DNA of 42,120 bases from a virus: positions 1 through 42,120 of IMG/VR virus record IMGVR_UViG_3300032081_001312; one strand, 5' to 3'. Positions 7,901-42,120 of this stretch are shown here, piece after piece. The position numbers were made by a program, and so were the translations under genes. Position 1 is the first letter of the stretch. The number at the start of each line of letters is the position of its first letter. The notes under the pieces were generated by a model that saw only the letters and a list, made by a program, of their open reading frames with translations, was not told where the DNA came from and did not search any database.

Positions 7901-10900
7901 GTCACATCTGTCACGCGGATCGAGGCGATGCGCAGAACAACAGCCTTGGATTGGTTCAGCCGCAGACCAAAGCGTGCGAAAACAGCCTCGGAGCTGAAGG
8001 CGGTCGCACCGTTGGCTGTGGTGTCGCTGAATAGACCAACAACCTCCTTTACGCTGGCGTCGTTCGCATTGATTACCGTGCCGCCGCGAAAGGCCAAGTC
8101 CGTGCCGGAATAATCAGCGATCATGCCAGCGGCGACCACATTAAACTCAGCTGGCGCTCCCGACATCATACGGAAACGAACCCGAACTTCGTAGAACCGA
8201 CCGGCTTGGATTGGGACAACACCCCTCGTCAGGATGTTGTTGCCGGCGCTCGTCCAGTTGGAAATTTCCCAGCTCGTGCCAAAGATCGCATCATTGGAGA
8301 TGAGCGAACCAGCGGCCAATGGTCGCCCAATCGGGGAACCCGTGCGGTCGTTGGTCCAATAGGCGTTGCCCTCCTTGAAATCATAGGGCAGCGCCTGGCT
8401 CTGATTGGCGACCGTTTCCTGAAGTGAGGAATAGGTCGAAGCTGCGGCGACTGCACTGCTATTGGCCGAAGTGGCGCTGTTGCCCGCGTTGGTGGCGCTG
8501 GTGGCGGCCGAGGATGCCGAACCGCTGGCGGCCGTCGCGCTATTGCCCGCGCTGGTAGCGCTGGTCGCCGCGTTCGTTGCCGCCGTCTGCGCGCTGTTGC
8601 GATAGCCCAGCGCGTCGCCCGCGCTGCTCGCCGCCGAGCCGGCGCTGGAAGTCGCCTCGCCCGCCTTGGTCGATGCCGTATTGGCGCTGGCGGTGGCGCT
8701 GGTGGCCGACTGCCCCGCATTGGTGGCGCTCGTTGCAGCCGACGACGCGCTCGTAGCTGCCGCCTGCGCCGCCTTGGCTGGCGCGAGGGCGTCCGGTCCG
8801 ACGACACGGATCGAATGAATGACGAAACTGCCGCCATTCCCTTGGTCAAGATCGAGGCGAATGCCGGTGATCGTGCCGGCTGTCCAATCCGCTCCGCCGA
8901 ACGCGGTCGGCATATCGTAGACTAGCTGGGTGCGCTGATTGAGAGAGGGATCACCGCCGACCATGGCAGTATCGGCTTTGTATTCGCTGGCCCAACTATG
9001 ACCAGCCCGGCTCCAGTAAAGGGAGCCGTCCCACGTCCCTGACGAGCGGTTCGCAGTTCGCGTGAGCGAAACGACAACGCGGGTAAACCGCGCACCGTCG
9101 AAAGACAGGCCGCTCCGATAGATGTAGGGATCGACGCCGGTGACCGCCACTTGCATCCCAGCGGCCGAAGTCGTGAGATTGGCGCTGCTGGAAGATGCCC
9201 AGCTATTCAGGGTATTGTTAAAATCGCTGACAAACCCGGCATCGAGATAGCCGCTATTCTCAAGCGCAGAACTGGCCGACACTGCGCTGCTCGCAGCGGC
9301 CGTTGCTGAGTTTCCGGCCTCGGTCGCTTTGGTTGCGGCAGTGTTGGCCGAACCCGAAGCTGCCGTGGCGCTGTTACCCGCCGCCGTCGCTGACCCAGCG
9401 GCTGCGCCGGCACTGGTCGATGCCGACGACGCGGAGCCGGCCGCGTTGGTCGCGGAAGTGGAGGCCTGCGTTGCCGACGTCGAGGCTTCGCTCGCCTTGG
9501 TCGCCGCCGTGGTGGCACTGGTCTGGGCCGAAGAGGCGGATTGAGCTGCTTCGGTCGCTTTCGTGGAGGCAGTCTGTGCACTCGTCGAGGCCGCCGTGGC
9601 GCTGTTGCCTGCGTTCGTGGCCGACGTGGCCGCCGCCCCGGCACTGGTCTGGGCCGCGCTGGCTGAGCCTGCGGCGTTCGTGGCAGAGGTCGATGCCTGA
9701 CCGGCTGAGGTTGAAGCATTGCCCGCCTGGGTCGCGGCAGTGGTCGCGCTGGTCTGGGCTGCACTAGCCGATTGCCCGGCGCTGGTCGCACTGGTCGCGG
9801 CTGCGCTGGCGCTGGTTGCGGCCGCGCTGGCGGACGATTTAGCCGCCTCGCGGGCTGTGACATCGGAAACACGAATGCGCAGCGGCTGGATGGTGATTGA
9901 CCCATCCGAACCGGTCGTGATGTTGATGAAGGCGCGCAGCCACACAGCGGTCGAGTGCCAGTTAATGTCGGCGCCGGCAGCGCTGACCAGGAAGGTTTGC
10001 GTGCGTCGCCCCGCAATGGCTGGCATGGACACGGCCGAAGAGGTGATGCTGGCGTAGGAGCCGTCCAGGCTTCGCACATAGGCTTTGACATCGACGCTGC
10101 CCGACACCGCTGGAATGCGATATTCGAATTCGACCTCATAGACGCGGCCGGTGACCGCCGGGAACACCCCGCGCTGCGCCCAATTTGCTCCGCCGTTCGC
10201 TGTCAAAATGATCTGATAGACCGGGGTGCCTTCCGGCGATGTGGCGTTGGCGAACGCGGGAGGGATGCTGGCGGGTGCGCCAACATGCTCGGTAGAGAAA
10301 TAGGGGTCGTTCGCGTTTGTGTATTTTTCCGGGAGGGTGGGGATAACCACACCCACAGCAGAGCTGTAGGCGCTCGAAGCCGAGACAGCGCTGGTCGCCG
10401 CAGCTGTTGCGCTATTACCAGCCTCGGTCGCTTTGGTGCTGGCAGTGTTCGCCGAACCTGACGCGGCCGTTGCACTGTTGCCGGCGGCCGTCGCCGAGCC
10501 AGCTGCCGCCCCGGCGCTGGTCGATGCCGATGACGCCGACCCGGCCGCGTTGGTCGCGGAAGTAGACGCCTGCGAAGCACTGGTCGAGGCTTCGCCCGCC
10601 TTCGTCGTCGCGGTGGTTTCACTAGTTGCGGCAGAAGCGGCCGATTGGCCGGCTTCTGTCGCTTTCGTGGAGGCCGTTTGCGCACTGTTGCTCGCTGCCG
10701 TTGCCGACTGGCCGGCATTGGATGCGCTGGTCGCAGCGGCCCCCGCACTGGTCTGGGCGGCGCTAGCAGACCCAGCGGCGTTTGTGGCAGAGGTCGATGC
10801 CTGAGATGCGCTGGTTGAAGCCTCACCAGCTTTAGTCGTTGCCGTGGTCGCGCTGGTTTGGGCCGCTGTCGCCGACGTGCCAGCGGCACCAGCACTGGTT

Positions 10901-21382: not shown

Positions 21383-22312
21383 TCAGCGCGCGCCCTGGAA
21401 CAGGAAGCCAGCATCGGCGCCGACCAGCTCGGCCGAGAACTCGTCCAGGACGTCATTCTTCCAGCTGCGAATGTCGCCGTCCCAGCGGGCCGGCTCGACC
21501 AGCGGATGGCCGCGCAGGCGATAAGTGTAGCCATAGCTGGGCAGCGGCATCTGGCGCTGACCGGCAGGCGGCACCCAGGCGAGGATGGCTTCGGTCCCCC
21601 AGATGTCGACCGTGGTCCCGTCCGCCTGGTCGTAGATACCATCGCCCGCCACGACATTCTGCACATCGAAATAGGTCTGCAGCATGGGGATGGTGATGGT
21701 GGAAGAGGTCGTGTGCTTGAAATGCTCGCGGATGCTCTCGTTCTTCTGCAGATCGGTTGCGAGACCGCCGGTCAACACCAGCGTATTGGGCCGACGACCG
21801 ATGCGGGCGCGGATGGTTTCCTTGGCATCCAGCACCTGGACCAGCGTGTCGCAGGTCGGATCGGACCACTTGTCGGCGCCCGTCAGCGCGGCTTTGTTGG
21901 TTGCGGCATAGGAGGCGGCATTCCGTGCCACCTCGGCCTGCTGGATTTCCTTTTCCATCGCGATCACCGCCAGGACCGTATCGACACCGACCTGAAGGAG
22001 ATCGATGCCAGGAACCTCGCCGGCTTCCTGCTGATGCTCGATCGGCGTGACGGCCGACAGCGCTTCCTGATGAAGGCTGACCGCCTTCCCTTCATAGCCG
22101 AACTCGAGCGCTGCAATCTGCGCGCCGGGCGCGCGGCGGGTCCGACGACGACGGAAGGAGGAACGGTCGAATTCGATCCGCTTGGCCGCGCGGGTCGGCA
22201 TATCGACCTCGGGAAAGAGGATATGGCCGATAAAGCCGGCATTGGTGTAACCGCGCGCGTGCTGGGTCAGGATCGGGTCGACGACGCGCAGCTGAGAGCC
22301 ATTCATGGACAT
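21383..22312 (-). CDS. Major capsid protein
   Basis: Encodes 309 residues. The gene follows protease/scaffold and cement genes, the standard place for the shell subunit, and the protein has the look of HK97-fold capsid subunits. Features include an N-terminal arm (LRVVDPILTQHARGYTN), a basic stretch with SFRRRRTRRAPGA, a long helix (EKEIQQAEVARNAASYAAT) and LVLTGGLATDLQKN in the P/A-domain region. It is not an obvious gpT homologue by eye. Confidence 0.8.
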   Translation of the reverse strand: MSMNGSQLRVVDPILTQHARGYTNAGFIGHILFPEVDMPTRAAKRIEFDRSSFRRRRTRRAPGAQIAALEFGYEGKAVSLHQEALSAVTPIEHQQEAGEVPGIDLLQVGVDTVLAVIAMEKEIQQAEVARNAASYAATNKAALTGADKWSDPTCDTLVQVLDAKETIRARIGRRPNTLVLTGGLATDLQKNESIREHFKHTTSSTITIPMLQTYFDVQNVVAGDGIYDQADGTTVDIWGTEAILAWVPPAGQRQMPLPSYGYTYRLRGHPLVEPARWDGDIRSWKNDVLDEFSAELVGADAGFLFQGAR

Positions 22313-22422
22313 AAGGGTAGACCTTTCACTGGAAACAGGGTGGGAGGCCGTTGCGCCGCCTGTGCAAGGTCAGGCCGCCTCCCTTGGGCAGTATCCGGGC
22401 GGCCATCATCGCCGCCCGACCT

Positions 22423-22758
22423 TCAGAACTTGAGGAGCACCTCGATCTTCTGGCCGTCCGCCGTGGCGGCGGTGACCGCGTAACCGAGGATTTCACCGGC
22501 ACCGGCCTGGGCGATGGCCTTGCCATTGGCGTCCGACTTGACCGGCCCCCAGGCCGCGATGGCACCACCCACCTCGACAATGGCGGTGCCGACGACATCG
22601 ACGGCCAAAGCCTCGCCTGCGGCGGCAGGCGTCTGCGAAACGCCGAGCGCCTTGGCGCCGGCCGCACAATGCGCGCCGGTTCCAAGACCCACGAACCGGG
22701 CTGCCGCGACGGCCACCGTGGCGATGGCGGAAAAGGTGAAGATTGAATTTTTCTGCAT
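22423..22758 (-). CDS. Capsid cement/decoration protein, DUF2190-like
   Basis: Encodes 111 residues: SAIATVAVAAARFVGLG ... ALGVSQTPAAAGEALAVDVVGTAIVEVGG ... GEILGYAVTAATADGQKIEVLLKF. Alternating short beta segments with the 'A(x)G.A..V...G...V' pattern are characteristic of DUF2190 proteins, which decorate and stabilise capsids. Adjacent to the major capsid gene on one side and the protease/scaffold gene on the other. Confidence 0.75.
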   Translation of the reverse strand: MQKNSIFTFSAIATVAVAAARFVGLGTGAHCAAGAKALGVSQTPAAAGEALAVDVVGTAIVEVGGAIAAWGPVKSDANGKAIAQAGAGEILGYAVTAATADGQKIEVLLKF

Positions 22759-22794
22759 GGTTCAGTCCTGCTGGAAGGTGAGCGAAGGGAGGCT

Positions 22795-23295
22795 TTAGCT
22801 GTCGGCCTGGGCGCGCTTGACAGCGTCGAGCCATGACAGGCCGGGATTGGCCTGCTGCAAGACGACGGCGCGGGCGTGGAGATCAGCCTGCTCGGGATCG
22901 ACATTATAGCCTTCCGGCGCGGCGAAGCTGACATAGGACTTGTCGCCGCCGGGCTTCTTGCCATGCTCGCCGAACGAGACGAGCGGCACAGCACTCTCGA
23001 ACAGCTTTTTGAGCGCGATGGCGGGAGCCATCTCACCGGCCTCGCCGAAACTTACGACAGCGGTGGCATCGAGATGGTCGAGAACCCCGATCAGCAGCCC
23101 CTTGCCAGCCGGGGCAAGCTTGCCGGCGGCGGCCAAGCCCTCAGCGAAGCTGACATTACCGTCATGGACGGCCTTCAAGGCAGAGGCCTTGGTCGCCTCT
23201 TCCCGCTCGGCGATGGCCGCCTCGCGCTGCGCCAGCGACTGTTCACGATCATTGAGCGCGGTTTCCCGCTCGGCGAAGCTCGCTTCTTTCGACAT
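22795..23295 (-). CDS. Scaffold protein from an in-frame internal start (Mu gpZ-like)
   Basis: An in-frame ATG at 23295 (MSKEASFAERETALNDRE) with AGAGG seven bases upstream would give a 166-residue protein containing the coiled coil and C-terminal part but no protease domain. Mu makes its scaffold Z in the same way from the 3' end of gene I. Seen: start, ribosome site and coiled coil. Inferred: separate expression. Confidence 0.55.
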   Translation of the reverse strand: MSKEASFAERETALNDREQSLAQREAAIAEREEATKASALKAVHDGNVSFAEGLAAAGKLAPAGKGLLIGVLDHLDATAVVSFGEAGEMAPAIALKKLFESAVPLVSFGEHGKKPGGDKSYVSFAAPEGYNVDPEQADLHARAVVLQQANPGLSWLDAVKRAQADS

Positions 23296-23763
23296 ATCTG
23301 CCTCTTCGGTGGATGGAAAATCGATGGTGGCGACGCCCCGGTCATCGCCTTCGGAAAACTGGACCGTGCCCAGCCCCTTGATGCCGGGCGCGGCCGCACC
23401 CAGGAAACCGATATGCTTCAGATACCAAACGCCAGGCTTCGGATTGGCGGGGTGCGCAGGCGGGTAGAAGCGGGCCGACACCTTGGGAAAGCGGCGCGCC
23501 CGCACCATTTCCGCGAAGCTCGGCTCGATATCGGAAGGCGTGGCGACCAACTCGCCACCCTGAAGGGCAAGCCCTGCAACCCAGCCATAAGCCGGATCAT
23601 CAAGACGCGGATGGCCGACTACCAGCGGCGCCGGATCAGCGGAAGCATCATAGGCGGCAGCTGTCGCCGCCATCATTTCTTCGGTGAAGGAAACCTCGAC
23701 ACCTTCGTTCGAGGTGAACTTGCCAACACGAGCAAGGCGAATGGTGGGGGGCGTCTGATCCAT
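22795..23763 (-). CDS. Head maturation protease with C-terminal scaffold (Mu gpI-like)
   Basis: Encodes 322 residues. The first ~150 match the Mu gpI protease family, with GHPRLDDPAYGWVAGL near residue 50 and RFPKVSARFYPP around residue 91. A coiled-coil scaffold region follows (about 157-195, FAERETALNDREQSLAQRE). It is expected to guide procapsid assembly, then cleave scaffold and itself. Start taken at ATG 23763; GTG 23769 is possible. A separate scaffold product probably starts at 23295. First structural gene of the leftward late operon. Confidence 0.85.
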   Translation of the reverse strand: MDQTPPTIRLARVGKFTSNEGVEVSFTEEMMAATAAAYDASADPAPLVVGHPRLDDPAYGWVAGLALQGGELVATPSDIEPSFAEMVRARRFPKVSARFYPPAHPANPKPGVWYLKHIGFLGAAAPGIKGLGTVQFSEGDDRGVATIDFPSTEEADMSKEASFAERETALNDREQSLAQREAAIAEREEATKASALKAVHDGNVSFAEGLAAAGKLAPAGKGLLIGVLDHLDATAVVSFGEAGEMAPAIALKKLFESAVPLVSFGEHGKKPGGDKSYVSFAAPEGYNVDPEQADLHARAVVLQQANPGLSWLDAVKRAQADS

Positions 23764-23798
23764 GACCACCGGATAGGCGGGGCGGACCAGGGCAATGG

Positions 23799-26123: not shown

Positions 26124-26176
26124 GTGCCGCCTATCATAGACGCTTGGCGGAGTCTTGTTTACTCTGCGTTCACACC

Positions 26177-26188
26177 CCGAAAAATCGG
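26177..26188. promoter_or_regulatory. Operator-like motif copy 5 (one mismatch)
   Basis: CCGAAAAATCGG, one base from the inverted consensus, in the ner-transposase gap 36 bases before the transposase ATG. Confidence 0.3.
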
Positions 26189-26223
26189 TGCAGCGTCAAA
26201 TCGGCACGTTTCGGAGGCGCATC

Positions 26224-28038
26224 ATGAGCGCCATCGAGGGGCGAACCAAACATCTGAGCGCCAAGGAAATCGCCGAGCTGCGTCTGACAGGTCTGCCGAC
26301 GACCAAGAAGGGCGTTCAGCTTCGCGCCGATCTGGAAGGCTGGCCGTTCGAGTTGCGCACCGTGCGCGGCGGCGAGGCTCACTTCTATGACATCATAGGC
26401 CTGCCGGAGGCGGCGCGCGCCGATCTGATTGAAAGGCGAGCTGACGCCGCCCTGTCCGCCATGCGCCCGGTTGGCCGCCCCAAGGGCGACTGGTTCGATC
26501 GCCATCCCGAAGTCGCCGATGCGGTGTTGGTCATTCTGGCCGAACACAAACACGCGTCTACCCGCGTCATGGAACTCCTAAATGCGCAATTTGACGAGCT
26601 ACCGTCCCTGCGCAGCTTGAAGCGCTACATACAGCGGGTCGAGAAGGAGCATAAGGTTCTCCTCGCCGCCGAACGCGATCCCGACAAATACAAGTCGATG
26701 TACCGCCCGGCGCTCGGCCGTATGGATGCCACCGTCTCCTACGCCCACGAAATGTGGGAGATCGACACCACCAAGGCTGACGTGATGTGCACCGATGGCC
26801 GGAAGGCGATCCTGGGCATCATCGACCGTTGGTGCCGTCGCACGCGCTTTTTGGTGGTCGAAAGCGAAAGCGCACAATCGGTCCGCACCATGCTGGTCAG
26901 TACAATGCTGGCCTGGGGTGTCATGCCTGCGGTGCTGAAGGTCGACAACGGCTCGGGCTTCATCAACGCTTCGATCATCGCGTCGCTCGACGCTGTCGGC
27001 ATCAAGCTCGACGCCTGTCTTCCCGGTCACCCGGAGGACAAGCCGCACGTCGAGCGCGTGTTTGGCACCTTCAACCGCGAACGCGCTTCGATGCTAAAGG
27101 GCTTCGTCGGCCACAATGTGGCCCAGGCGCAGCAGCTGCGCGCCCGCGCAAAGAAGAAGACCGGCCGCGCCGTTATCGAAGCCGGGATCGACAGCATCGA
27201 GCTGCAGCGCATTCTCGATGCCTGGGTCGATGGCACCTACCACCAGCGCAAGCACAGCATGATCGGCATGTCGCCAATGGAGAAGTGGCAGCGCTCTCCC
27301 GAACCGGCGCGGTCAGCGCCACCCGAAAGTCTCCTGAAGATCGCCTTCAGCGCGGTTATCGGCCCCGCTACCGTCACCAAGCGAGGCGTGCGCTGGAAGA
27401 ATGGCCGTTACTGGTCGGACACGCTTGTCCCGCTGATGGGCAAGCAGGTCATGCTTCGTTGGGATGAAGGCGACCTGGGCGCCCTCTACATCTTCGACGA
27501 GGCAGGCAACTACGTCGACACTGCCGTCAACGTCGAGCGCAAGGGCTTCTCCCAGCAGGCGATGGCGCTTGCCGCCCGCCGCGAAATGACAAAGTTCCTC
27601 AACGAACAACGCACCGAGCTGCGGCAAAAAAAGGCATCCTTCTCGATCGAGAAGGCCATGGACACCGTCCTTCGCGACGAAGCCGAACGCGCTGGCAAGC
27701 TCGCTCATTTTCCCAGGCCAACCGAGGCGCGGGCGACACCGGCCATGGACAGCATCGCAAATGCGCCCGCCCCAGCCGTGCCCGACACTGCGCAGTTGGA
27801 GGCCATGCTCGCCAAACCTGCCGCACCCCGGCAGGCGCTCCGCACCCCCGCCGAGAAGATGGCGGAAGCCGACGCGATCATCGCCGCCCACAAACGGGGC
27901 GAGAGCGTCGACGCTGAGGCCCTGCGTCGGGCGCAGCTCTACGCCACCACCGCCGAATATCGTGCCGAGAAGATGATGGTCATCGCCTTCGGCGCGCCCG
28001 CCGCAGCCCCGGCTGATCGCCGCCAGGGGGCCGCATGA
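26224..28038 (+). CDS. Mu A-type DDE transposase/integrase
   Basis: A 604-residue enzyme that nicks and joins the prophage ends during integration and replicative transposition. An N-terminal DNA-binding region (IAELRLTGLPTTKKGVQLRA) is followed by the catalytic core with D181 (WEIDTT), D241 (KVDNGSG) and E277 (PHVERVFG). The D241-E277 spacing is of the DD35E type, as in TnsB/IS3 rather than Mu A itself. The C-terminal Ala-rich region probably contacts the B ATPase. ATG 26224 has GGAGG upstream and is preferred over 26155. The stop overlaps a possible earlier B start. Confidence 0.95.
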   Translation: MSAIEGRTKHLSAKEIAELRLTGLPTTKKGVQLRADLEGWPFELRTVRGGEAHFYDIIGLPEAARADLIERRADAALSAMRPVGRPKGDWFDRHPEVADAVLVILAEHKHASTRVMELLNAQFDELPSLRSLKRYIQRVEKEHKVLLAAERDPDKYKSMYRPALGRMDATVSYAHEMWEIDTTKADVMCTDGRKAILGIIDRWCRRTRFLVVESESAQSVRTMLVSTMLAWGVMPAVLKVDNGSGFINASIIASLDAVGIKLDACLPGHPEDKPHVERVFGTFNRERASMLKGFVGHNVAQAQQLRARAKKKTGRAVIEAGIDSIELQRILDAWVDGTYHQRKHSMIGMSPMEKWQRSPEPARSAPPESLLKIAFSAVIGPATVTKRGVRWKNGRYWSDTLVPLMGKQVMLRWDEGDLGALYIFDEAGNYVDTAVNVERKGFSQQAMALAARREMTKFLNEQRTELRQKKASFSIEKAMDTVLRDEAERAGKLAHFPRPTEARATPAMDSIANAPAPAVPDTAQLEAMLAKPAAPRQALRTPAEKMAEADAIIAAHKRGESVDAEALRRAQLYATTAEYRAEKMMVIAFGAPAAAPADRRQGAA

Positions 28039-28079
28039 CAACCGCCTTTCAACTCCATTGCACGAACGGAGAAGAACCG

Positions 28080-28853
28080 ATGAATAGCCTTGCCTCTCAG
28101 CCGCGCCTTGACCTTGGCGACGGACCACGCGGCCACGCGCCACTGACCAATATGAGCCTTGCCCTGCGCACCATCATGGAGTGCGAGGAGGCCGGGCCGG
28201 ACAGCTCGACGCGCATCGGTCTGCTCTACGGCTTCTCGGGCTACGGCAAGACGGTATCCGCTGGCTTCGTGGCGGCCCGCACCGGCGCCGCTTACGTAGC
28301 CGCCCAATCGGTCTGGTCGCAGCGAACGCTGCTGGAGGCCATCGCCGAGGAGTTGGGCATCACCCGCCCCGCGCGCACGGCACCCAACCTGTTGCGCCAG
28401 ATCATCGACCAGCTCAACCATGAGCCACGCCACCTGATCATCGACGAAACCGACCATCTGGTGAACAAGCGATCGGTCGAGATCATCCGCGACATTCACG
28501 ACAGCACGCCAATCGCGATCATGCTGATCGGCGAGGAGGCGCTGCCCTCGAAGCTGAAGGAATGGGAGCGGTTCGATAACCGCGTTCTCATCGCGACGCC
28601 GGCCCAGCCCGCTTCGATCGCAGATGCTCACAAGCTGCGCGACCATTATTGCACCCGCGTCCGCATCGCAGATGATCTGGCCGAACTGTTCCAGGCGCGC
28701 TGCAAGGGCATCACCCGCCGTATCGTCACCAACCTGCGCGCCGCTCAGCGAGCGGCTGCGGAAGAGGGCGTTGGCGAGATCGATGCCCGCTGGTGGGGTA
28801 GCCGCCCGATCCTCAACGGCGACCTGCCCGTCCGTCGGCGGGAGATCGCGTGA
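28080..28853 (+). CDS. Mu B-like AAA+ ATPase, target-DNA activator
   Basis: Encodes 257 residues with Walker A GFSGYGKT (residues 51-58, K57) and Walker B LIIDE (D122, E123). Such proteins bind DNA with ATP, choose target sites and stimulate the transposase, and give target immunity. GGAGAAG precedes ATG 28080. An in-frame ATG at 28035, overlapping the transposase stop, would add 15 residues and is the alternative start. Confidence 0.92.
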   Translation: MNSLASQPRLDLGDGPRGHAPLTNMSLALRTIMECEEAGPDSSTRIGLLYGFSGYGKTVSAGFVAARTGAAYVAAQSVWSQRTLLEAIAEELGITRPARTAPNLLRQIIDQLNHEPRHLIIDETDHLVNKRSVEIIRDIHDSTPIAIMLIGEEALPSKLKEWERFDNRVLIATPAQPASIADAHKLRDHYCTRVRIADDLAELFQARCKGITRRIVTNLRAAQRAAAEEGVGEIDARWWGSRPILNGDLPVRRREIA

Positions 28854-34767: not shown

Positions 34768-35307
34768 ATGGGGCGCAAATCGTCGATCAAAACCCTGCCG
34801 CCACAAGTGCAGGCGGCTGTCGTCAAGGCGCTCGAAACAAGTGCGACGATTGATGAGATCGTAGCGAAGCTGGCGGAGCTGGGGCACACGCGGTCGCGCT
34901 CGGCGGTCGGTCGTTATGCCAAAGATTATGCCGAGATGGCTAAACACCAGCGTGATATCCGCGTGGTGGCAGAAGCCTTCGCCTCTGAGTTCGGCAGCGC
35001 CGACAATGCAGAGGGCAAGTTCATGGTCCAGATGCTGACCAGTATCGGCGCTCGCATGATCCTGCCCATGGCGACGGGCGACGGGGAAGAGCTGGACGCA
35101 CTCGATTTCCAACGCTTGGCCAAAGCCACCAAGGACTTGCTGTCATCCGCCAAGCTTGACGCGGAGCGCGACGCGCGCCTGCGCGAAGAGGCCAAGAGGG
35201 AAGCCCAGGAGGAAATGCGCCGGAAGCTCGACGCTGCTGGTCACCAAGGGCGGATCGACCCCACTGCGATGGCCGAGGCGCGGCGCATTCTGGGCTTTGG
35301 CGAGTAA
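34768..35307 (+). CDS. Terminase small subunit (DUF3486, Mu gp27-like)
   Basis: Encodes 179 residues. MGRKSSIKTLPPQVQAAVVK and the following helix-turn-helix (ATIDEIVAKLAELGHTRSRS) with VGRYAKDYAEM are typical of DUF3486. This subunit recognises phage DNA and hands it to the large terminase. The C-terminal half is a charged helix. It ends in a one-base overlap with the large terminase gene. Confidence 0.85.
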   Translation: MGRKSSIKTLPPQVQAAVVKALETSATIDEIVAKLAELGHTRSRSAVGRYAKDYAEMAKHQRDIRVVAEAFASEFGSADNAEGKFMVQMLTSIGARMILPMATGDGEELDALDFQRLAKATKDLLSSAKLDAERDARLREEAKREAQEEMRRKLDAAGHQGRIDPTAMAEARRILGFGE

Positions 35308-36779
35308 TGGCCGACCGCGCCTTTGGCGATGAGCTGCAACGCCTCATCCACTTCCATCCCTATCAGCAGGCGTGGCTTGCCGATCAGAGCCGGTTCAAGG
35401 CCGGCATGTTCTCGCGCCAGACCGGCAAGACCTTCACCACATGCGCAGAACTGGTCGACGATTGCATCAGCGCGGAACTCACTGGAAAGCGCACACGCTG
35501 GGTCATCCTCTCGCGCGGCGAACGTCAGGCGATGGAGGCGATGACGGAGAACGTCAAGCCAATGACGCGGGCCTTCTGGGCGCTCTACAACGGATTGAAG
35601 GGTGCGCCGCCCGAAGTCGTCGAAGGTGAGTTCCGTGGCGAGACAACCGATGCCACCTATCGCACTTACGAGGTGATGTTCCCTAGCGGCTCGCGTATCA
35701 CCGCGCTGCCAGCCAATCCCGACACGGCGCGCGGCTTCTCCGCCAACGCGGTGCTTGACGAGTTCGCGTTCCACCAGAACAGCAAGGCCATTTGGGGAGC
35801 GCTCTTCCCCGTAATTTCCAAGGGATGGAAGCTGCGCGTCATTTCGACGCCCAATGGCAAGAGCAACAAGTTCTACGAGATCATGACCGCGACCAACTCG
35901 ATCTGGTCGCGGCACATGGTAGATATTTATCAGGCGGTCAGGGACGGCCTCGACCGCAATATCGACGAACTGCGCGCCGGCATGAGCGACGCGGACCTGT
36001 GGGCACAGGAATTCGAGCTGAAGTGGCTGGACGAAGCGACGGCCTGGCTCGACTTCGACCTCATCAACAAGGCCGAAACCCCTGGCTACGGCCGGCTGCG
36101 CGTCATCGAATATACCGAGGGCGTCAAGACCAGGGATGACATTACGGGCGAGCCGATCGGGCCGACCAACGCCGAAGTTTTCGTCGGCATGGACATCGCC
36201 CGCAAGAAAGACCTCACCTGCATTTGGGTCGCCGAAAAGTTAGGCGACACCCTTTATCCTCGCGAGATCATTACAATGCGGCGGGCGCCCTTCCAGGCGC
36301 AAATGCAGATACTTGCCGAGGTCATCCAGCGCGACCGTGTCTCACGCGCCTCGATTGACGAGACCGGCATGGGCCTCCCGTTCGTCGAGCAGGCGAAGGG
36401 TTTGCTCGGCAAATTCAGGATTGAAGGCGTCACCTTCACTCTGCCCGCGAAATTCGCGCTGGCGACGATGCTCAAGGATCGGATGGAGGATCGCAAGTTC
36501 CGCATTCCGGCCGGCGACATCTACCTGCGGGACGATCTGCATTCGATCACCAAGGCGGTCACCGCCACGGGCGCCGTCAGGCTGGTCCATGACGGCGAGA
36601 GCGACGGCCACGGTGACCGCTTCTGGGCGGCCGCACTCTGCGTCAACGCGGCGGGCGAATATGCTGGACCGATCGAAGTGCATCCCCTCGGCCAGATGCG
36701 CAGTGCCGCCTCCGAAACCCTAATCACCACCACCGGCTTCGGCACCATCCGACGCCGGCCCAGCGGACTTTACTTTTGA
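35307..36779 (+). CDS. Terminase large subunit (Mu gp28-like)
   Basis: A 490-residue DNA-packaging motor. The ATPase has Walker A FSRQTGKT (K41, T42) and Walker B VLDEF (D151, E152). The C-terminal nuclease begins with VGMDIARKKD (D296) and includes a second acidic motif (SIDETGMG, about 350). It cleaves host-flanked phage DNA and pumps it into the prohead through the portal. The stop shares a base with the portal ATG. Confidence 0.93.
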   Translation: MADRAFGDELQRLIHFHPYQQAWLADQSRFKAGMFSRQTGKTFTTCAELVDDCISAELTGKRTRWVILSRGERQAMEAMTENVKPMTRAFWALYNGLKGAPPEVVEGEFRGETTDATYRTYEVMFPSGSRITALPANPDTARGFSANAVLDEFAFHQNSKAIWGALFPVISKGWKLRVISTPNGKSNKFYEIMTATNSIWSRHMVDIYQAVRDGLDRNIDELRAGMSDADLWAQEFELKWLDEATAWLDFDLINKAETPGYGRLRVIEYTEGVKTRDDITGEPIGPTNAEVFVGMDIARKKDLTCIWVAEKLGDTLYPREIITMRRAPFQAQMQILAEVIQRDRVSRASIDETGMGLPFVEQAKGLLGKFRIEGVTFTLPAKFALATMLKDRMEDRKFRIPAGDIYLRDDLHSITKAVTATGAVRLVHDGESDGHGDRFWAAALCVNAAGEYAGPIEVHPLGQMRSAASETLITTTGFGTIRRRPSGLYF

Positions 36780-38857
36780 TGGCCCAGCGACCCGCCCCCT
36801 ATCGCTCCACCCGCACGCCCGCCAAGGCACTCAGGCCCTCGGCCGAGCTGCTGACGGAGATCGCGACCACGCGCGATGGCCGCGACATTACGCAGCCGTG
36901 GGTGCGTGGCCTGCGCGAAGCCAAAGACCCTAAGCTCTCTACCTCCGTCGATTGGGGAGCCTACGATGTCGTCTTCAACGACGACCAGGTGAAATCGACG
37001 ATGCAGCAGCGCATCGGCGCCGTCGTGTCGCGGGATTGGAACGTGCTTGCCGGCGACGATGAAGACCCCCGCGCCGGGAAGGCTGCCGAAGCCTTCAACC
37101 GGACTCTGATGCGGCTGCCCTGGGACCGCATCACTCGCAAGATGCTGATGGCGACTTTCTACGGCTATAGCGTCGCGGAACTGATGTGGGGGTATCGCGA
37201 TGGCCTGCTCGACATCACAGACATCAAGGTCCGCCATGCGCGGCGTTTCCGGTACGACGACGAAGATCGCCTGCGGATGCTCACGCCGACGAACATGCAG
37301 GGCGAAATTCTGCCGGAACGGAAATTCTGGGTCCATTCCGTCGGCGCGGCCGATGACGATCAGCCCTACGGTCAAGGCTTGGCCTATTGGCTCTACTGGC
37401 CGACGCTGTTCAAGCGCAACGGCATCCGCTTCTGGAACGTCTTTCTAGACAAGTTCGGGACGCCCACGGCGATCGGCAAATATCCGCGTGGGGCGACCCG
37501 CGAAGAACAAATGAAGCTGCTCGCCGCCCTCCAGGCGATTGCAAACGACAGCGGCTTCATCGTGCCCGAAGACGTTGCGGTCGACCTGCTTAAGGCCGCC
37601 ACATCGGGCACGACCGACTTTCACACGCTCTGCCTCTACATGGACTCAGCCATCAGCAAGGTCGTGCTGTCACAGACGATGACCACGGACAACGGTTCCT
37701 CGCGCGCCCAGGGCGAGGTCCATGCCGATGTCAAGTTGGAGGTGGTCAAAACCGACGCCGACGATCTGACCGATAGTTTTACCGATCAGGCGGCGCGCTG
37801 GTGGACCGATTTCAATTACGGTGCAGATGTGGCCGCGCCGATCGTCCGTCGCATCGTCGAGGAACCCCAGGATACTCAAGCCCAGGCGACCACTGATAAG
37901 ACGCTGGCCGATCTGGGCTGGGTCCGCACGAAGGAGAGTTTCGAGGATACCTACGGGGAGGGGTTCGTTCGCCGCGACGACCCCGACGCTCCATCCGGCT
38001 CCCAGCAGCAGCAGACCCAACCTCCTGAACAACTCGGCCACAATGGCGGCCCGCCGCTGGATGATGCAAATTCGCTGCAACCCGGCAAGGTGGTCAGCTT
38101 TGCCGCTGACGATCCCCGTCCGCTTTACGTCTATCGCCAGCTCCTCAACGCCAGTGAATTGCTGGATTGGGCACGCTCGCAGGGCTTCACATCGACCATG
38201 CCGGCCGAGCAGTTGCACGTCACGGTCACCTATTCCAAGCGGCCGGTGAACTGGTTTGCCATGGGCCAGTTCGGCTCCAACAGCGGAGAGGTTATCGTTG
38301 GTCCCGGCGGCCCTCGTTTGATCGAGCGAATGGGCGACGGCAGTGCAGTTGCGCTGCTGTTCCAGTCCACGGACCTGCAATGGCGTCACCGCGAGATGCG
38401 CGATGCAGGAGCAAGTTGGGATCACCCCTCCTACCTTCCCCACGTCACCCTGACCTATGAAGCCAGCGACCGCGATCTGGCCGAGATCGAACCATATCAG
38501 GGTCGCCTCGTGTTCGGCCCGGAGCGGTTTGAGGCGATCCAGGAGGGCTGGAAGGAATTGGTGGCCGAAACAGCCCCCGCCGCCAGCTTCGCCGAAAGCG
38601 ACGACGATGGCCACGATGACGCAGACAGCGTCGTCGACCGCATGATCGCAGAAGACGGCTATCGCGTGGCCAATGCCATCACAGGCACCATCGTGGATCG
38701 CCTGCTTAGCGCCGACAGTGAAACAGAGGCCCGCGCGATCCTTGCCGGTGCGCTCGGCGTCATGGACGATGTCCCGCTCATCCAGGCGCTGGAGCGGGCC
38801 GGCTTCGCCGTTCAACTCGACGCGGCCGCCCAGCCGGCGGCCGAGGTCGCGGAATGA
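36779..38857 (+). CDS. Portal protein (DUF935, Mu gp29-like) fused to Acb1-like 2H phosphoesterase
   Basis: Encodes 692 residues. Residues about 1-400 are a Mu-type portal (QQRIGAVVSRDWNVLAGDDE, LMWGYRDGLLDI, FWNVFLDKFGTPTAIGKYP). After a Gln/Pro linker, residues about 440-600 form a 2H phosphoesterase with H480-V-T482 (LHVTVTYSK) and H555-V-T557 (PHVTLTYE). The pattern YRQLLNASELLDWARSQGF ... AGASWD resembles phage Acb1, which degrades CBASS cyclic nucleotide signals. A short acidic, helical C-terminus follows. Portal function is firm; anti-CBASS activity is inferred. Confidence 0.85.
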   Translation: MAQRPAPYRSTRTPAKALRPSAELLTEIATTRDGRDITQPWVRGLREAKDPKLSTSVDWGAYDVVFNDDQVKSTMQQRIGAVVSRDWNVLAGDDEDPRAGKAAEAFNRTLMRLPWDRITRKMLMATFYGYSVAELMWGYRDGLLDITDIKVRHARRFRYDDEDRLRMLTPTNMQGEILPERKFWVHSVGAADDDQPYGQGLAYWLYWPTLFKRNGIRFWNVFLDKFGTPTAIGKYPRGATREEQMKLLAALQAIANDSGFIVPEDVAVDLLKAATSGTTDFHTLCLYMDSAISKVVLSQTMTTDNGSSRAQGEVHADVKLEVVKTDADDLTDSFTDQAARWWTDFNYGADVAAPIVRRIVEEPQDTQAQATTDKTLADLGWVRTKESFEDTYGEGFVRRDDPDAPSGSQQQQTQPPEQLGHNGGPPLDDANSLQPGKVVSFAADDPRPLYVYRQLLNASELLDWARSQGFTSTMPAEQLHVTVTYSKRPVNWFAMGQFGSNSGEVIVGPGGPRLIERMGDGSAVALLFQSTDLQWRHREMRDAGASWDHPSYLPHVTLTYEASDRDLAEIEPYQGRLVFGPERFEAIQEGWKELVAETAPAASFAESDDDGHDDADSVVDRMIAEDGYRVANAITGTIVDRLLSADSETEARAILAGALGVMDDVPLIQALERAGFAVQLDAAAQPAAEVAE

Positions 38858-39087
38858 GCTGGCACGCAAATATGGGCCATGCGCCTGTCTTCTATCCCGA
38901 TCAGCCGGACCAGCCGTGCCCGCCGCACCTGCTCGCTGAAAGCGAAGCATCGGGCGCGCGGGTTCGGGTCCGGCTGCGTAATGGCCGTGAGCCGGATGAA
39001 AGTTGGCCCATAGCCGGCCGCCCTATTCCTACTCGTTGGACGCTGATCGGTAGCGACTTCGACATCATCGCATGGAGGCGGGCTTGA
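38854..39087 (+). CDS. Small hypothetical protein
   Basis: Encodes 77 residues, Pro-rich at the start (MGHAPVFYPDQPDQPCPPH) and beta-like later (GARVRVRLRNG ... TRWTLIGSDFDIIAWR). ATGA overlap with the portal stop. Conserved-looking but unidentified. Confidence 0.58.
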   Translation: MSWHANMGHAPVFYPDQPDQPCPPHLLAESEASGARVRVRLRNGREPDESWPIAGRPIPTRWTLIGSDFDIIAWRRA

Positions 39088-39758
39088 CCAGCATGAATGG
39101 CGCGCTCCTGGCGAGGATCAGGAAGTGCCTCGCTCTGGCGAAATCTTCCAACGAGCACGAGGCGGCGACCGCGCTGGCAAAAGCTCGCACGCTCATGGAG
39201 GAACATGGTGTTTCAATGGACGACATTGCCATGTCGGAAATCGGAGAGGCCAAGGCTAAAGGCTCCACCACCCAACGGCCGCCGCTCTGGGAGACTGCCC
39301 TCTGCATGACCGTTCGGCACGCGCTCGGCTGCAAGGTGATCATCGACGCCGATCTGCACCGCATTTACATCGGCCCCGGTCCCGCGCCAGAGATCGCCTC
39401 CTACACCTTCGTTGTCCTCTTCCGGCAACTCAAGTCGGCACGGCAGGAATATATCCGCCTGCACCTCAAACGGTGCCGCCCTGGTCGCAAGCGCCAACGC
39501 GCTGATATTTTCTGCGAGGCTTGGGCAAAGGCGGTTTACAGTAAGGTGAAGGCTCTAATGCCAGCCGTTCCCTTACATGCAGCGACCGACCAATATATTG
39601 CGCGCCGGTTCGATAGTCTTGTCGAGGTAGGCAATCGCAGCGCCTCGCTCAAAGGCAGCCGGCTCGAAAATGACTATTGGCGCGGGCACCAAGCCGGTCG
39701 CTCAATCGACCTTTCACAGGGCGTTGATGGCAGCGCCGCTCGGTTGAGGCTCGCATAA
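39084..39758 (+). CDS. DUF2786 protein
   Basis: Encodes 224 residues. LLARIRKCLALAKSSNEHEA followed by ALAKARTLMEEHGVSMDDI is the DUF2786 signature, and the middle domain (FVVLFRQLKSARQEYIRLHL) with the WRGHQAGRSIDL end follows the usual arrangement. Function of the family is unknown. TTG 39084 has GGAGG five bases upstream and the TTGA overlap; ATG 39093 and 39072 are alternatives. It interrupts the usual portal-MuF neighbourhood. Confidence 0.75.
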   Translation: MTSMNGALLARIRKCLALAKSSNEHEAATALAKARTLMEEHGVSMDDIAMSEIGEAKAKGSTTQRPPLWETALCMTVRHALGCKVIIDADLHRIYIGPGPAPEIASYTFVVLFRQLKSARQEYIRLHLKRCRPGRKRQRADIFCEAWAKAVYSKVKALMPAVPLHAATDQYIARRFDSLVEVGNRSASLKGSRLENDYWRGHQAGRSIDLSQGVDGSAARLRLA

Positions 39759-40987
39759 TGGCCGACAGCTTGGGCTATTCGATTTTCCTGAAGCCAGATG
39801 ACGTTGTTCGCGCCTTTGAGACGCGCGACGCACTTCAGCCAACTGTCCGCTGGTCGGAGATGATGCATGAAAATCATGCAGTCGCCTTCACCGTCGCGAA
39901 GATCGCCAAGCTCGATCTCTTGCGCTCGGTCCAGATGTCGATCGACGATGTGTTGCGCAACGGCGGGACATTCGAGGAATGGAAGGGTGCCATCCTCCCC
40001 GAATTGAAAAAAGCCGGCTGGTGGGGTTCCGTCACCAATGCCGAACTCACCGGCACGCCCGACACCGTCATAGTCAATAATCGCCGGCTACGAACGATCT
40101 ACAACACCAACGTCCGCATGAGCATGGCGTCGGGTCATTGGGCGCGCATCCAGCGGCAGAAGGATATCTATCCATATCTCCGCTACCTGCCTTCAACTTC
40201 CGAACACAAGCGGCCGCTCCACAAGACGTGGTACGGCATCCTGCTGCCCGTGGACCATCCCTTCTGGCAAACGCATTTTCCGCCCAATGGCTGGGGCTGT
40301 AAATGTCATTTCGAGCAGGTCAGTGAGCGCAAGATGAAGCGCATGGGCTGGACCGTCACGCCCGATAAAGAACTGCCGCAAGATTCGCGCGTCTTTGTTG
40401 ATGCCACCGGCCGTCAATTGAATGTGCCCGCCGGTATCGATCCCGGCTTCAGCTACAATCCCGGCACCGCGCATCTGCGGGCCGTCGCGGCGAAGGCCGT
40501 GGCATCCCTGCGCGCCGCCACCGACTCGGGCATGGAGGCAGTCGCCGATGCGACGCTGCGCGAAATTGTGGCGGATGCCGCCTTTGACCAATTCCTAGGT
40601 GCCCCCCATGGGGCCTTCCCCGTCGCCATTCTCGATCCGGCGCAACAGGCGGCAATGCAGGCTCGCAGCCGCGTCATCGTTATGCCCGAGGGCGTTTATC
40701 GGAAACAGCGCGGGGACATGCCGGCCATCTCGCGTGGGCACCCGGAACTGACGCCTGACAACTACCGCCTTCTGCCGGACATTGTGGCGCGCGCTTTGAT
40801 CATCGCGCAGCAGGGCGACAGCAAACTGATCTTCTTCGCTGATGCAGCCGGGAACATCTGGAAAGCGGTCGTCCGGCAGGACATTGGAGACGATCTTCCC
40901 GTGCTGGTCAGCTTCCATCGCAGCCGCCCGCGCAACGTCGCCGCTGAGACCCGTAACCTGACCATCCTTGTGGATCGACGTCAATGA
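39758..40987 (+). CDS. MuF-like minor head protein with C-terminal toxin-like domain
   Basis: Encodes 409 residues. The MuF/SPP1 gp7 domain spans about residues 50-215 (RRLRTIYNTNVRMSMASGHW, PPNGWGCKCHFEQVS); such proteins sit in the head near the portal and assist morphogenesis. The last ~130 residues form a separate domain (SRVIVMPEGVYRKQRGD, HPELTPDNYRLLPDIVARAL, then strands ending FHRSRPRN) resembling the barnase/EndoU/ColicinE5-D/RelE-like PBECR nucleases fused to MuF proteins. Toxin activity is inferred. The stop overlaps an ATG leading into the gap before the methylase. Confidence 0.82.
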   Translation: MADSLGYSIFLKPDDVVRAFETRDALQPTVRWSEMMHENHAVAFTVAKIAKLDLLRSVQMSIDDVLRNGGTFEEWKGAILPELKKAGWWGSVTNAELTGTPDTVIVNNRRLRTIYNTNVRMSMASGHWARIQRQKDIYPYLRYLPSTSEHKRPLHKTWYGILLPVDHPFWQTHFPPNGWGCKCHFEQVSERKMKRMGWTVTPDKELPQDSRVFVDATGRQLNVPAGIDPGFSYNPGTAHLRAVAAKAVASLRAATDSGMEAVADATLREIVADAAFDQFLGAPHGAFPVAILDPAQQAAMQARSRVIVMPEGVYRKQRGDMPAISRGHPELTPDNYRLLPDIVARALIIAQQGDSKLIFFADAAGNIWKAVVRQDIGDDLPVLVSFHRSRPRNVAAETRNLTILVDRRQ

Positions 40988-41325
40988 TGTGCGGAGCGAT
41001 GCGCGGCAGGGACTTCCTGTCCCCTGCTAAGCAGTCAACGGCCAGTAGCCTCGCGCTACGGAGGGAAGAATTCACCGCGTCGCGCGCATCGCTGGCTTTA
41101 TATAGCCCCAACGGCGGCCATTTTCAATTCACCGCCGATGGGCGGGGGATGGGGCGCGCCAACGCCCCAAGCCGACGGTCTCGACCCGTCACGATCTGGC
41201 TGGCCAAAGCCGAAATCATCCCGCCATCCAACGCTGGACGGCGCGATCAAATAGAGAACATTGTGAAAGAGTCGAGTCCGTTTTCAGGGTCGCCGCAGGC
41301 GGCCTGCAATGACCATGCACATCAC
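40988..41325. other. Gap between muF and methylase genes
   Basis: An open frame from ATG 40984 continues into the methylase, but its 114 residues have mixed, uncharacteristic composition and no domain I know, so I treat it as non-coding. A stem-loop (GCAGGGAC, 5-base loop, GTCCCCTGC; 41006-41027) follows the muF stop. TATATA lies at 41099-41104 without a properly spaced -35. A small immunity gene for the MuF toxin domain would be expected near here, but none stands out. Confidence 0.4.
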
Positions 41326-42120
41326 ATGCAGCCCGTTGCGCCGGTGCGCCCTGTCGCCCCGTACATCGGCGGGAAGCGTAATCTGGCAAAGCGAGTTATC
41401 GCCCGCATTAATACCATTCCTCATGAGACCTACGCGGAAGTGTTTGTCGGCATGGGCGGCATTTTCCTGCGGCGCGACCTCCGACCATCGGCCGAGGTCA
41501 TCAACGACTGGTCGGAGGATGTGTCGACATTTTTCCGTATCCTGCAGCATCATTATGTCGCGTTCCTGGACATGATCCGTTTTCAGATCGCATCGCGCGC
41601 AGGGTTTGAAAAGCTGCTGGCCACAGACCCTCGCTCGCTCACTGATCTGCAAAGGTCTGCCCGGTTTCTATATCTGCAACGCCTCGCCTTTGGCGGCAAA
41701 GTAGATGGCCGGACCTTTGGCGTCGCACCGACCCGTCCCAGCCGCTTTGATGTCACGAAGCTCGCACCGATGCTGGAGGCCCTCCATGAGCGGCTGGCAG
41801 GGGTCACCATAGAACGGCTGCGATGGCAGGACTTCCTGCTTCGCTATGATCGACCGGGCACGCTCTTCTACCTCGACCCGCCCTATTTCGATTGCGAAGG
41901 TGATTATGGCTCGCAGATGTTCGGGCAGGACGAATTTGCCGAAATGGCAGAGCGGCTGGCAGGCCTGAAAGGGCGCTTCATGCTCAGCCTGAATGACCAC
42001 CCGAAGGTGCGCGAACTGTTCGGCCGGTTCAGCATGGAGGAGGTCCGCACAACCTATCATGTGAGCGGCAATGGCAAGGCTCAGCCAGCCCGCGAATTGA
42101 TCATCAGCGACCCGGCCTGA
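41326..42120 (+). CDS. D12-class DNA adenine N6-methyltransferase (Dam-like)
   Basis: Encodes 264 residues. The AdoMet-binding motif APYIGGKRNLA is near residue 12 and the catalytic DPPY is at 184-187 (YLDPPYFDCE). D12 enzymes such as Dam methylate adenine in short sites. A phage copy at the end of the virion genes may protect DNA from restriction or alter regulation, comparable in position to Mu mom. ATG 41326 is the first start giving a normal N-terminus. It is the last gene before the unseen right end. Confidence 0.9.
   Translation: MQPVAPVRPVAPYIGGKRNLAKRVIARINTIPHETYAEVFVGMGGIFLRRDLRPSAEVINDWSEDVSTFFRILQHHYVAFLDMIRFQIASRAGFEKLLATDPRSLTDLQRSARFLYLQRLAFGGKVDGRTFGVAPTRPSRFDVTKLAPMLEALHERLAGVTIERLRWQDFLLRYDRPGTLFYLDPPYFDCEGDYGSQMFGQDEFAEMAERLAGLKGRFMLSLNDHPKVRELFGRFSMEEVRTTYHVSGNGKAQPARELIISDPA

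Follow-up and report, generated by a model that had tools for sequence, protein, structure and literature searches.

How does a phage portal protein come to carry what looks like an anti-immune enzyme, and when in infection could such an enzyme act? This question is raised by IMG/VR record IMGVR_UViG_3300032081_001312, which was analysed over its entire length of 42,120 bases (hereafter, the window) and both ends of which fall on gene boundaries. It belongs to a Mu-like phage, with a Mu-type transposase and a transposition protein encoded at 26155-28850, and the window also encodes a late activator, a terminase small subunit and tail genes. In the protein encoded by its portal gene, a domain of the Acb1 type, i.e., a predicted hydrolase of the nucleotide signals used by cyclic-oligonucleotide-based antiphage signalling systems (CBASS), is placed between the core and the C-terminal tail of a DUF935 portal. 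The domain is probably active, and the short motifs on both sides of it suggest that the head maturation protease of the phage could set it free (Table 1).

The portal part of the protein scores 342.9 bits with Portal_Mu (PF06074) in the Pfam profile search, against a cut-off of 23.9, and its predicted model matches the portals of JBD30 (8rka, Z 22.8) and Mu (9knu, Z 21.4), so that both profile score and fold place it in this family. The following domain scores 134.4 bits with the Acb1 profile PF23474 (cut-off 27, E 3e-39). This profile outscores the generic 2H models by about 120 bits: PF13563, for which the cut-off is 27, reached no more than 14.1 bits, and PF02834 was not listed at E 1, giving no assignment to the LigT type. 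A search of Protein Data Bank (PDB) sequences with the domain retrieved the Pam3 portal (8hds, E 1.6e-37) and the FBB1 Acb1 (7t26, E 4.2e-9). The predicted fold of the domain superimposes on 7t26 with Z 16.3 and a root mean square deviation of 1.9 Å over 132 residues, which classifies it as a 2H fold. When the domain was modelled alone, with a predicted local distance difference test score (pLDDT) of 78.4, the best Foldseek match was again 7t26 (E 3.5e-9), and LigT structures came next. The full-length model, built from a 42-sequence alignment, has a mean pLDDT of 70.0 and a predicted template modelling score of 0.47; within residues 451-590 the ten-residue blocks are at pLDDT 60-94, and the flanks 407-443 and 598-636 are under 50. 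Finally, two HVT motifs starting at H480 and H555 (numbering from the ATG) and thus 75 residues apart constitute the HxT/HxT tetrad of this enzyme class. A chance occurrence of the HxT motifs is excluded by the Pfam, PDB sequence and fold matches, and a generic LigT enzyme by the sub-cut-off score of the generic 2H model. PADLOC yielded no defence-system family at E 5, and no NCBIfam model came near its cut-off. Altogether, by profile, fold and pocket residues, the domain is an Acb1. An earlier note on this DNA, made from the letters alone, had already proposed a DUF935 portal at 36779-38857 with an Acb1-like 2H domain and two HVT motifs at this spacing; open reading frame, family, motifs and likeness are all confirmed, including by the profile search and the superposition that it had suggested.

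Alignment with T4 57B (Acb1) places Y12 on Y450, H44 on H480, T46 on T482, H113 on H555, T115 on T557, E141 on E585 and W147 on W591 of the window protein. According to the passages on the T4 and FBB1 enzymes in the 2022 study that defined Acb1 (PMC9117128), the tetrad is responsible for catalysis, Y12, W74, F107 and W147 stack on the bases, and E141 contacts adenine. Among the stacking positions, Y450 and W591 are thus kept, while F107 is replaced by H549 and W74 by E516, in a region that is poorly aligned. W74 is also absent from the standalone Acb1 of ZHS and DSS3P8; the stacking residues are a feature of T4 and FBB1 that not all standalone members keep. Among 28 distinct DUF935-fused domains, Y12, T46 and H113 are present in all 28, E141 in 27, and W147 and H44 in 26 each; both HxT/S motifs are found in 26. 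W147 (6/15) and E141 (11/15) are less conserved when the domain is fused to portals of the DUF1073 family, and the HK97-type portal L225 has S and K at these two positions. The ratio of non-synonymous to synonymous substitution rates (dN/dS) of Acb1 is 0.03-0.22 across 14 compared pairs in which both members carry the domain, these values being rough because the Acb1 dS exceeds 1 in 8 of the 14. In the same pairs, the portal core gives 0.05-0.28; the linker, with 0.03-0.65 where the ratio is defined, is fast evolving. The low dN/dS, a sign of purifying selection, excludes a decayed domain. Judging from sequence and model, the Acb1 enzyme of this portal is intact in its catalytic and key pocket residues, and probably active.

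Could the domain nevertheless act on something else, such as 2',3'-cyclic phosphate RNA ends, 2'-5' oligoadenylates or other signals, or have a structural role only? The varied substrates of 2H enzymes, the LigT structures next in the Foldseek ranking, and two relatives (L029 and L270) that retain the domain without its first catalytic His would be in keeping with this, and RNase or oligoadenylate roles were initially proposed by Iyer et al. in 2017, in the part of that paper dealing with these domains (PMC5512222). We consider such an alternative improbable, as the lead of PF23474 over the generic 2H profiles, the retention of E141 and W147 in nearly all DUF935-fused domains and the low dN/dS argue against it.

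Comparison with close relatives reveals Acb1 as a cassette placed between the core and the tail of the portal, since relatives without it retain both flanking sequences. Indeed, L006 lacks Acb1 but is 76% identical to the window protein over 433 residues of the core and 79% over 91 residues of the tail; L021 is a second close relative without the domain. The census of DUF935 portals that the earlier note had suggested covered the best 80 matches to the portal core among 518 from viral contigs, 24 of which carry Acb1, and the best 80 among 131 from genomes, where a single locus does, namely L097 of Sphingobium faniae. A core tree was made from 82 distinct rows, 23 of them fused to Acb1 and 59 not, from which near copies and the majority of genome loci had been excluded. 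In this tree, all 23 fused rows belong to a single clade of 40 rows, with at least five changes of state, four of which are forced by starred branches. The position of L006 and L021 among L003, L004, L019 and the window is backed by one starred group of 7 rows, and the branches below this level carry no star. As for insertion by direct-repeat recombination, the similarity between the two junctions is short and at the codon level only.

Among other Mu-type portals, L098, L148, L161 and L083 have 364, 292, 178 and 176 residues after the core, respectively, in which no further Pfam domain was found, and it is possible that these tails are other cargo in the same slot. In L099, L101, L102, L105, L116 and other Magnetococcales loci, the DUF935 frame stops a few residues past the core and is tailless, and a single open frame of L124 (Magnetococcales, 5971-8181) encodes a fusion of Portal_Mu with Phage_Mu_F.

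By sequence, Acb1 sits on three portal families. It follows PF06381 (DUF1073) in Pam3, Ssp-JY40, phiPSA1, RHEph04, L226, L227, L231 and L232, a parallel that the earlier note had named correctly, and PF04860 (HK97-type) in L225 and likewise in L271, L272, L273 and L275, the related L274 being without the domain. Among 396 genomes of the host's order, seven have an Acb1 match, corresponding to two DUF935 portals, four DUF1073 portals and one short unclassified frame. In the domain tree, a single starred group (95/95) holds the portal-borne rows; the DUF935 rows are nested inside the DUF1073 rows, and the starred branches force at least two moves between portal families. The root of this tree is unsure because three standalone rows sit on very long branches.

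The cassette of the window is bracketed by two related motifs, SFAA upstream and SFAE downstream. In the 28 fused portals, FAA precedes Acb1 in 26, [FL]AE follows it in 27, and both are present in 26. Of 104 distinct Mu-type tails without Acb1 and of at least 60 residues, 82 contain FA[ED] (shuffle mean 8.0, maximum 17), in a linker that is hard to align. The same motif occurs in 81 of 87 protease proteins, with 336 copies versus 31.2 after shuffling (maximum 46), i.e., about ten-fold over chance; the C-terminal part of this protein is scaffold according to the annotations of the B3, RcapMu and Mu records. Strict FA[ED] does not exceed the shuffles (given second) in MuF proteins (21/135, 20.7), the terminase large subunit TerL (35/128, 38.9), capsid (3/59, 7.5) or neck proteins (1/58, 3.6). 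Within the window, SFA[AED] is found eight times in open reading frames of at least 80 residues: four times in the protease, twice in the portal and twice in reading frames that overlap other genes in a different frame. Furthermore, the exact four-residue word of the portal recurs in the phage's own protease in 34 of 75 cases versus 18.7 with proteases exchanged (0 of 2000 exchanges as high), relatedness being uncontrolled in this comparison. The Mu portal linker is without FAE and carries ALSA/E at residue 431 (the slash marks the presumed cut), and the Mu protease contains ALSA three times, against a shuffle mean of 0.04.

A different motif is found at the DUF1073 junctions, where [GATN]DA stands directly before Acb1 in 14 of 15 fusions and the strict form [LVIM][GATN]DA in 7 of 15. 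Ten proteases of DUF1073 phages contain 37 copies of the strict form versus 3.6 shuffled, and 2 of FA[ED] versus 0.9; in 99 Mu-type proteases the corresponding numbers are 12 versus 14.7, and 220 versus 22.7. Therefore, the junction motif follows the protease, in a test that is less blind than that of FA[ED], since the pattern was derived from the portal junctions, and looser matches in the proteases had been inspected before it was tested. From these patterns we infer that the Mu-type head maturation protease of the phage recognizes the SFAA/SFAE bracket as its cleavage signal, and that maturation cleavage would free Acb1.

The reading that we favour, and hold to be reasonably probable on sequence and model evidence, is that of a portal subunit with an active Acb1 cassette that is freed by the head protease and hydrolyses CBASS signals late in infection. 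Flexible linkers tie Acb1 to the core of the portal and to its C-terminal tail, and portal and enzyme would be made together, late, along with the head genes. During head assembly, the maturation protease would cut near 442/443 and 605/606, releasing an enzyme of about 163 residues. Freed or still fused, this enzyme could hydrolyse 3'3'-cyclic di- and trinucleotide CBASS signals in the late assembly phase, in which large amounts of portal are produced, so that the signals would be removed in the producing cell. Fusion to the portal would ensure the late timing, and assembly would bring Acb1 into the procapsid; trapping in the head and ejection with the DNA is a bolder reading. The Sphingobium genome that carries the prophage scores over the cut-off with a SMODS-family model, and so do 32 of the 298 genomes that were sampled from the same family; a CBASS target is therefore plausible there, though not universal.

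Several observations weigh against this reading. CBASS-type SMODS cyclases are found at no more than moderate frequency in the family of the host. W74 is not conserved among the fused domains, and the first catalytic His is replaced in 2 of the 28 (by N in L029 and by Y in L270, the rest being intact); because of this loss, these two domains look inactive. The looser pattern [FL]A[ED] exceeds the shuffles in MuF (86/135; shuffle 62.8, maximum 80) and in TerL (103/128; shuffle 81.0, maximum 93), and FA[ED] is missing from 22 of the 104 Acb1-less tails, some of which have FAA, LAE or FSE. No motif excess was detected in small separate scaffold or decoration proteins (0/4 and 1/19), L262 and L270 are without the upstream FAA, and the HK97-type fusion junctions have no such motif by eye. 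JBD30 is only loosely alike, with VAALAT in the portal and IAALTA/IAALTR in the protease. The motif shuffles take no account of relatedness among the sequences, and the literature searched, of partial coverage with subscription papers mostly outside, yielded no cleavage site or motif for a Mu-type protease. Finally, the FA motif could instead be a scaffold-binding signal.

This last point belongs to an alternative in which Acb1 functions against CBASS without being cut off, as part of freshly synthesized and largely unassembled portal in the infected cell, and the FA motifs serve scaffold binding or another role in assembly. The T4 enzyme is indeed free, made during infection and in need of no virion, as the relevant sections of its description indicate (PMC9117128), and since the disordered linkers are long, the domain could work while fused. 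On the other hand, the strict motif is common to the portal tail and the protease/scaffold and not to MuF, TerL or capsid, an additional copy lies upstream of Acb1 in 26 of 28 fusions, and the Mu virion model is without the portal tail, which makes this alternative rather unlikely in our view.

The portal of Mu is the best studied of this family. The Mu virion model is without the last 124 residues of gp29, which the authors describe as consistent with protease I having removed them (PMC11915804). In the alignment, residue 388 of Mu falls on residue 377 of the window protein, which lies before Acb1 (about 448-593); since the match to the contracted-state chain extends to residue 401, the end of the Mu model is not itself the cut. 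The JBD30 portal model covers 405 of 526 residues, and the scaffold of this phage is reportedly cleaved by the prohead protease gp37 (PMC11445458). The Mu and JBD30 data fit a tail that is lost or disordered in the virion, short of proof for Acb1 excision.

These data also bear on the model of the earlier note, which had placed up to twelve attached Acb1 copies at the portal vertex of every virion, acting at infection. The domain is encoded within the portal gene, and the portals of Mu and JBD30 are dodecameric in the sections describing them (PMC11915804, PMC11445458). Nevertheless, the portal tail missing from the Mu model and the incomplete JBD30 chain leave this model unsupported, and Acb1 lies between two putative protease motifs. 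Pam3 8hds has Acb1 by sequence, yet it is absent from the 50 listed of 213 Foldseek matches of the domain, as if unmodelled there, and from the 50 matches listed for the full model; with the presence of this chain in the library unconfirmed, this is no proof. Moreover, the portal remains with the empty head after DNA ejection, and an Acb1 still attached to it would therefore stay outside the cell. Such a model thus appears highly improbable: Acb1 identity, portal fusion and DUF1073 parallel are supported, and the twelve virion-borne copies at infection are not.

Our preferred reading can be extended further. In this extension, with the portal as a carrier guided by assembly, twelve Acb1 copies would be built into the interior of the procapsid, excised by the protease at family-specific motifs, kept in the head and ejected with the DNA, the cassette having moved between the three portal families. 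The released internal protein, and not the portal, would then disarm CBASS as the next infection begins, and the junction motifs would be matched to the family's protease in at least two of the three portal families. We regard this extension as tentative and unlikely to hold in full.

The head module of the window is divided, with capsid, scaffold-like and protease genes at 21383-23769 on the minus strand and terminase, portal and MuF genes on the plus strand at the right end, at 35307-40987. For phage KS10, the division of the capsid module has been described as unusual (PMC2628397). In the head operon, the MuF gene is flanked by a DUF2786/DUF7168 gene (39072-39758) and a D12-class DNA adenine methyltransferase gene (40984-42120), and homologues recur in several relatives. 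The window protease gave no Pfam match at 0.01 and was matched by PHROGs.

Table 1. Position in the window of the portal-Acb1 gene, its parts and other head genes.
Feature	Position	Strand	Basis or remark
Portal-Acb1 fusion gene	36779-38857	+	692 residues from ATG; TTG start possible 3 bases upstream (36776)
Portal_Mu (DUF935) core, residues 62-393	36962-37957	+	PF06074, E 2.9e-102; JBD30 and Mu portal fold matches
Linker 1, residues 407-443, predicted disordered	37997-38107	+	pLDDT under 50; fast evolving
SFAA motif at 440-443, upstream of Acb1; putative site of the maturation protease	38096-38107	+	FAA conserved there; SFAA also in the window's protease
Acb1 domain, residues 448-593	38120-38557	+	PF23474; 7t26 fold match
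H480-V-T482, first catalytic HxT (T4 H44/T46)	38216-38224	+	T4 Acb1 alignment
H555-V-T557, second catalytic HxT (T4 H113/T115)	38441-38449	+	T4 Acb1 alignment
E585 (T4 E141, adenine contact) to W591 (T4 W147, lid)	38531-38551	+	Alignment; roles from passages of PMC9117128
SFAE motif at 603-606, downstream of Acb1; putative site of the maturation protease	38585-38596	+	Where Acb1-less portals have a single putative site
C-terminal helical tail of Mu-type portals, residues 607-692	38597-38854	+	Kept in Acb1-less relative L006
Head maturation protease/scaffold	22795-23769	-	phrog_976, E 2.4e-82; SFAE three times, SFAA once
Major capsid protein	21383-22312	-	phrog_1005, E 1.2e-75
Terminase large subunit	35307-36779	+	PF03237, PF17289
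MuF-like head protein	39758-40987	+	PF04233

If our preferred reading is true, an anti-immune enzyme has been made obligatory, late and assembly-linked by way of an essential structural protein, to be then freed by the head protease. It would also provide a candidate cleavage signal for Mu-type head proteases, SFA/E or EFA/E, with ALSA/E in Mu, and this putative signal predicts which proteins these proteases cut. The cassette-bearing and cassette-free relatives constitute natural test pairs.

The idea of 2H domains on portals is itself not new. Fusions of 2H domains with portal or MuF domains were reported by Iyer et al. (2017, 2022), who in the passages concerned proposed nucleotide-signal degradation and injection for such fusions in general (PMC5512222, PMC9503650). 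The predicted countering of nucleotide signalling is the same as here; those passages assume packaging and injection, and name neither DUF935 nor a cassette polymorphism or a protease bracket. No paper on a DUF935-Acb1 fusion was found in the literature searched, the coverage of which was partial. What is new here is the cassette nature of the domain, its presence on three portal families and the SFAA/SFAE bracket with matching protease motifs.

Among characterized systems, the domain resembles the Acb1 of T4 and FBB1 (PF23474; 7t26, 7t27) in fold, HxT/HxT tetrad, Y12, E141 and W147. However, the T4 enzyme is a free protein of 152 residues, whereas that of the window is an internal portal cassette, with E516 for W74 and H549 for F107. 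The DUF1073/PF06381 portals (Pam3 8hds, phiPSA1, RHEph04, Ssp-JY40) likewise carry Acb1 on the portal, with domains of the same clade. They differ in the portal family, in the position of Acb1, which forms the extreme C-terminus and in most of the rows seen is not followed by a portal tail, and in the [GATN]DA junction. Finally, gp29 and protease I of Mu share with the window the portal family, the protease type and a putatively cleavable C-terminal tail, but Mu has no Acb1 and carries ALSA/E in place of SFA/E.

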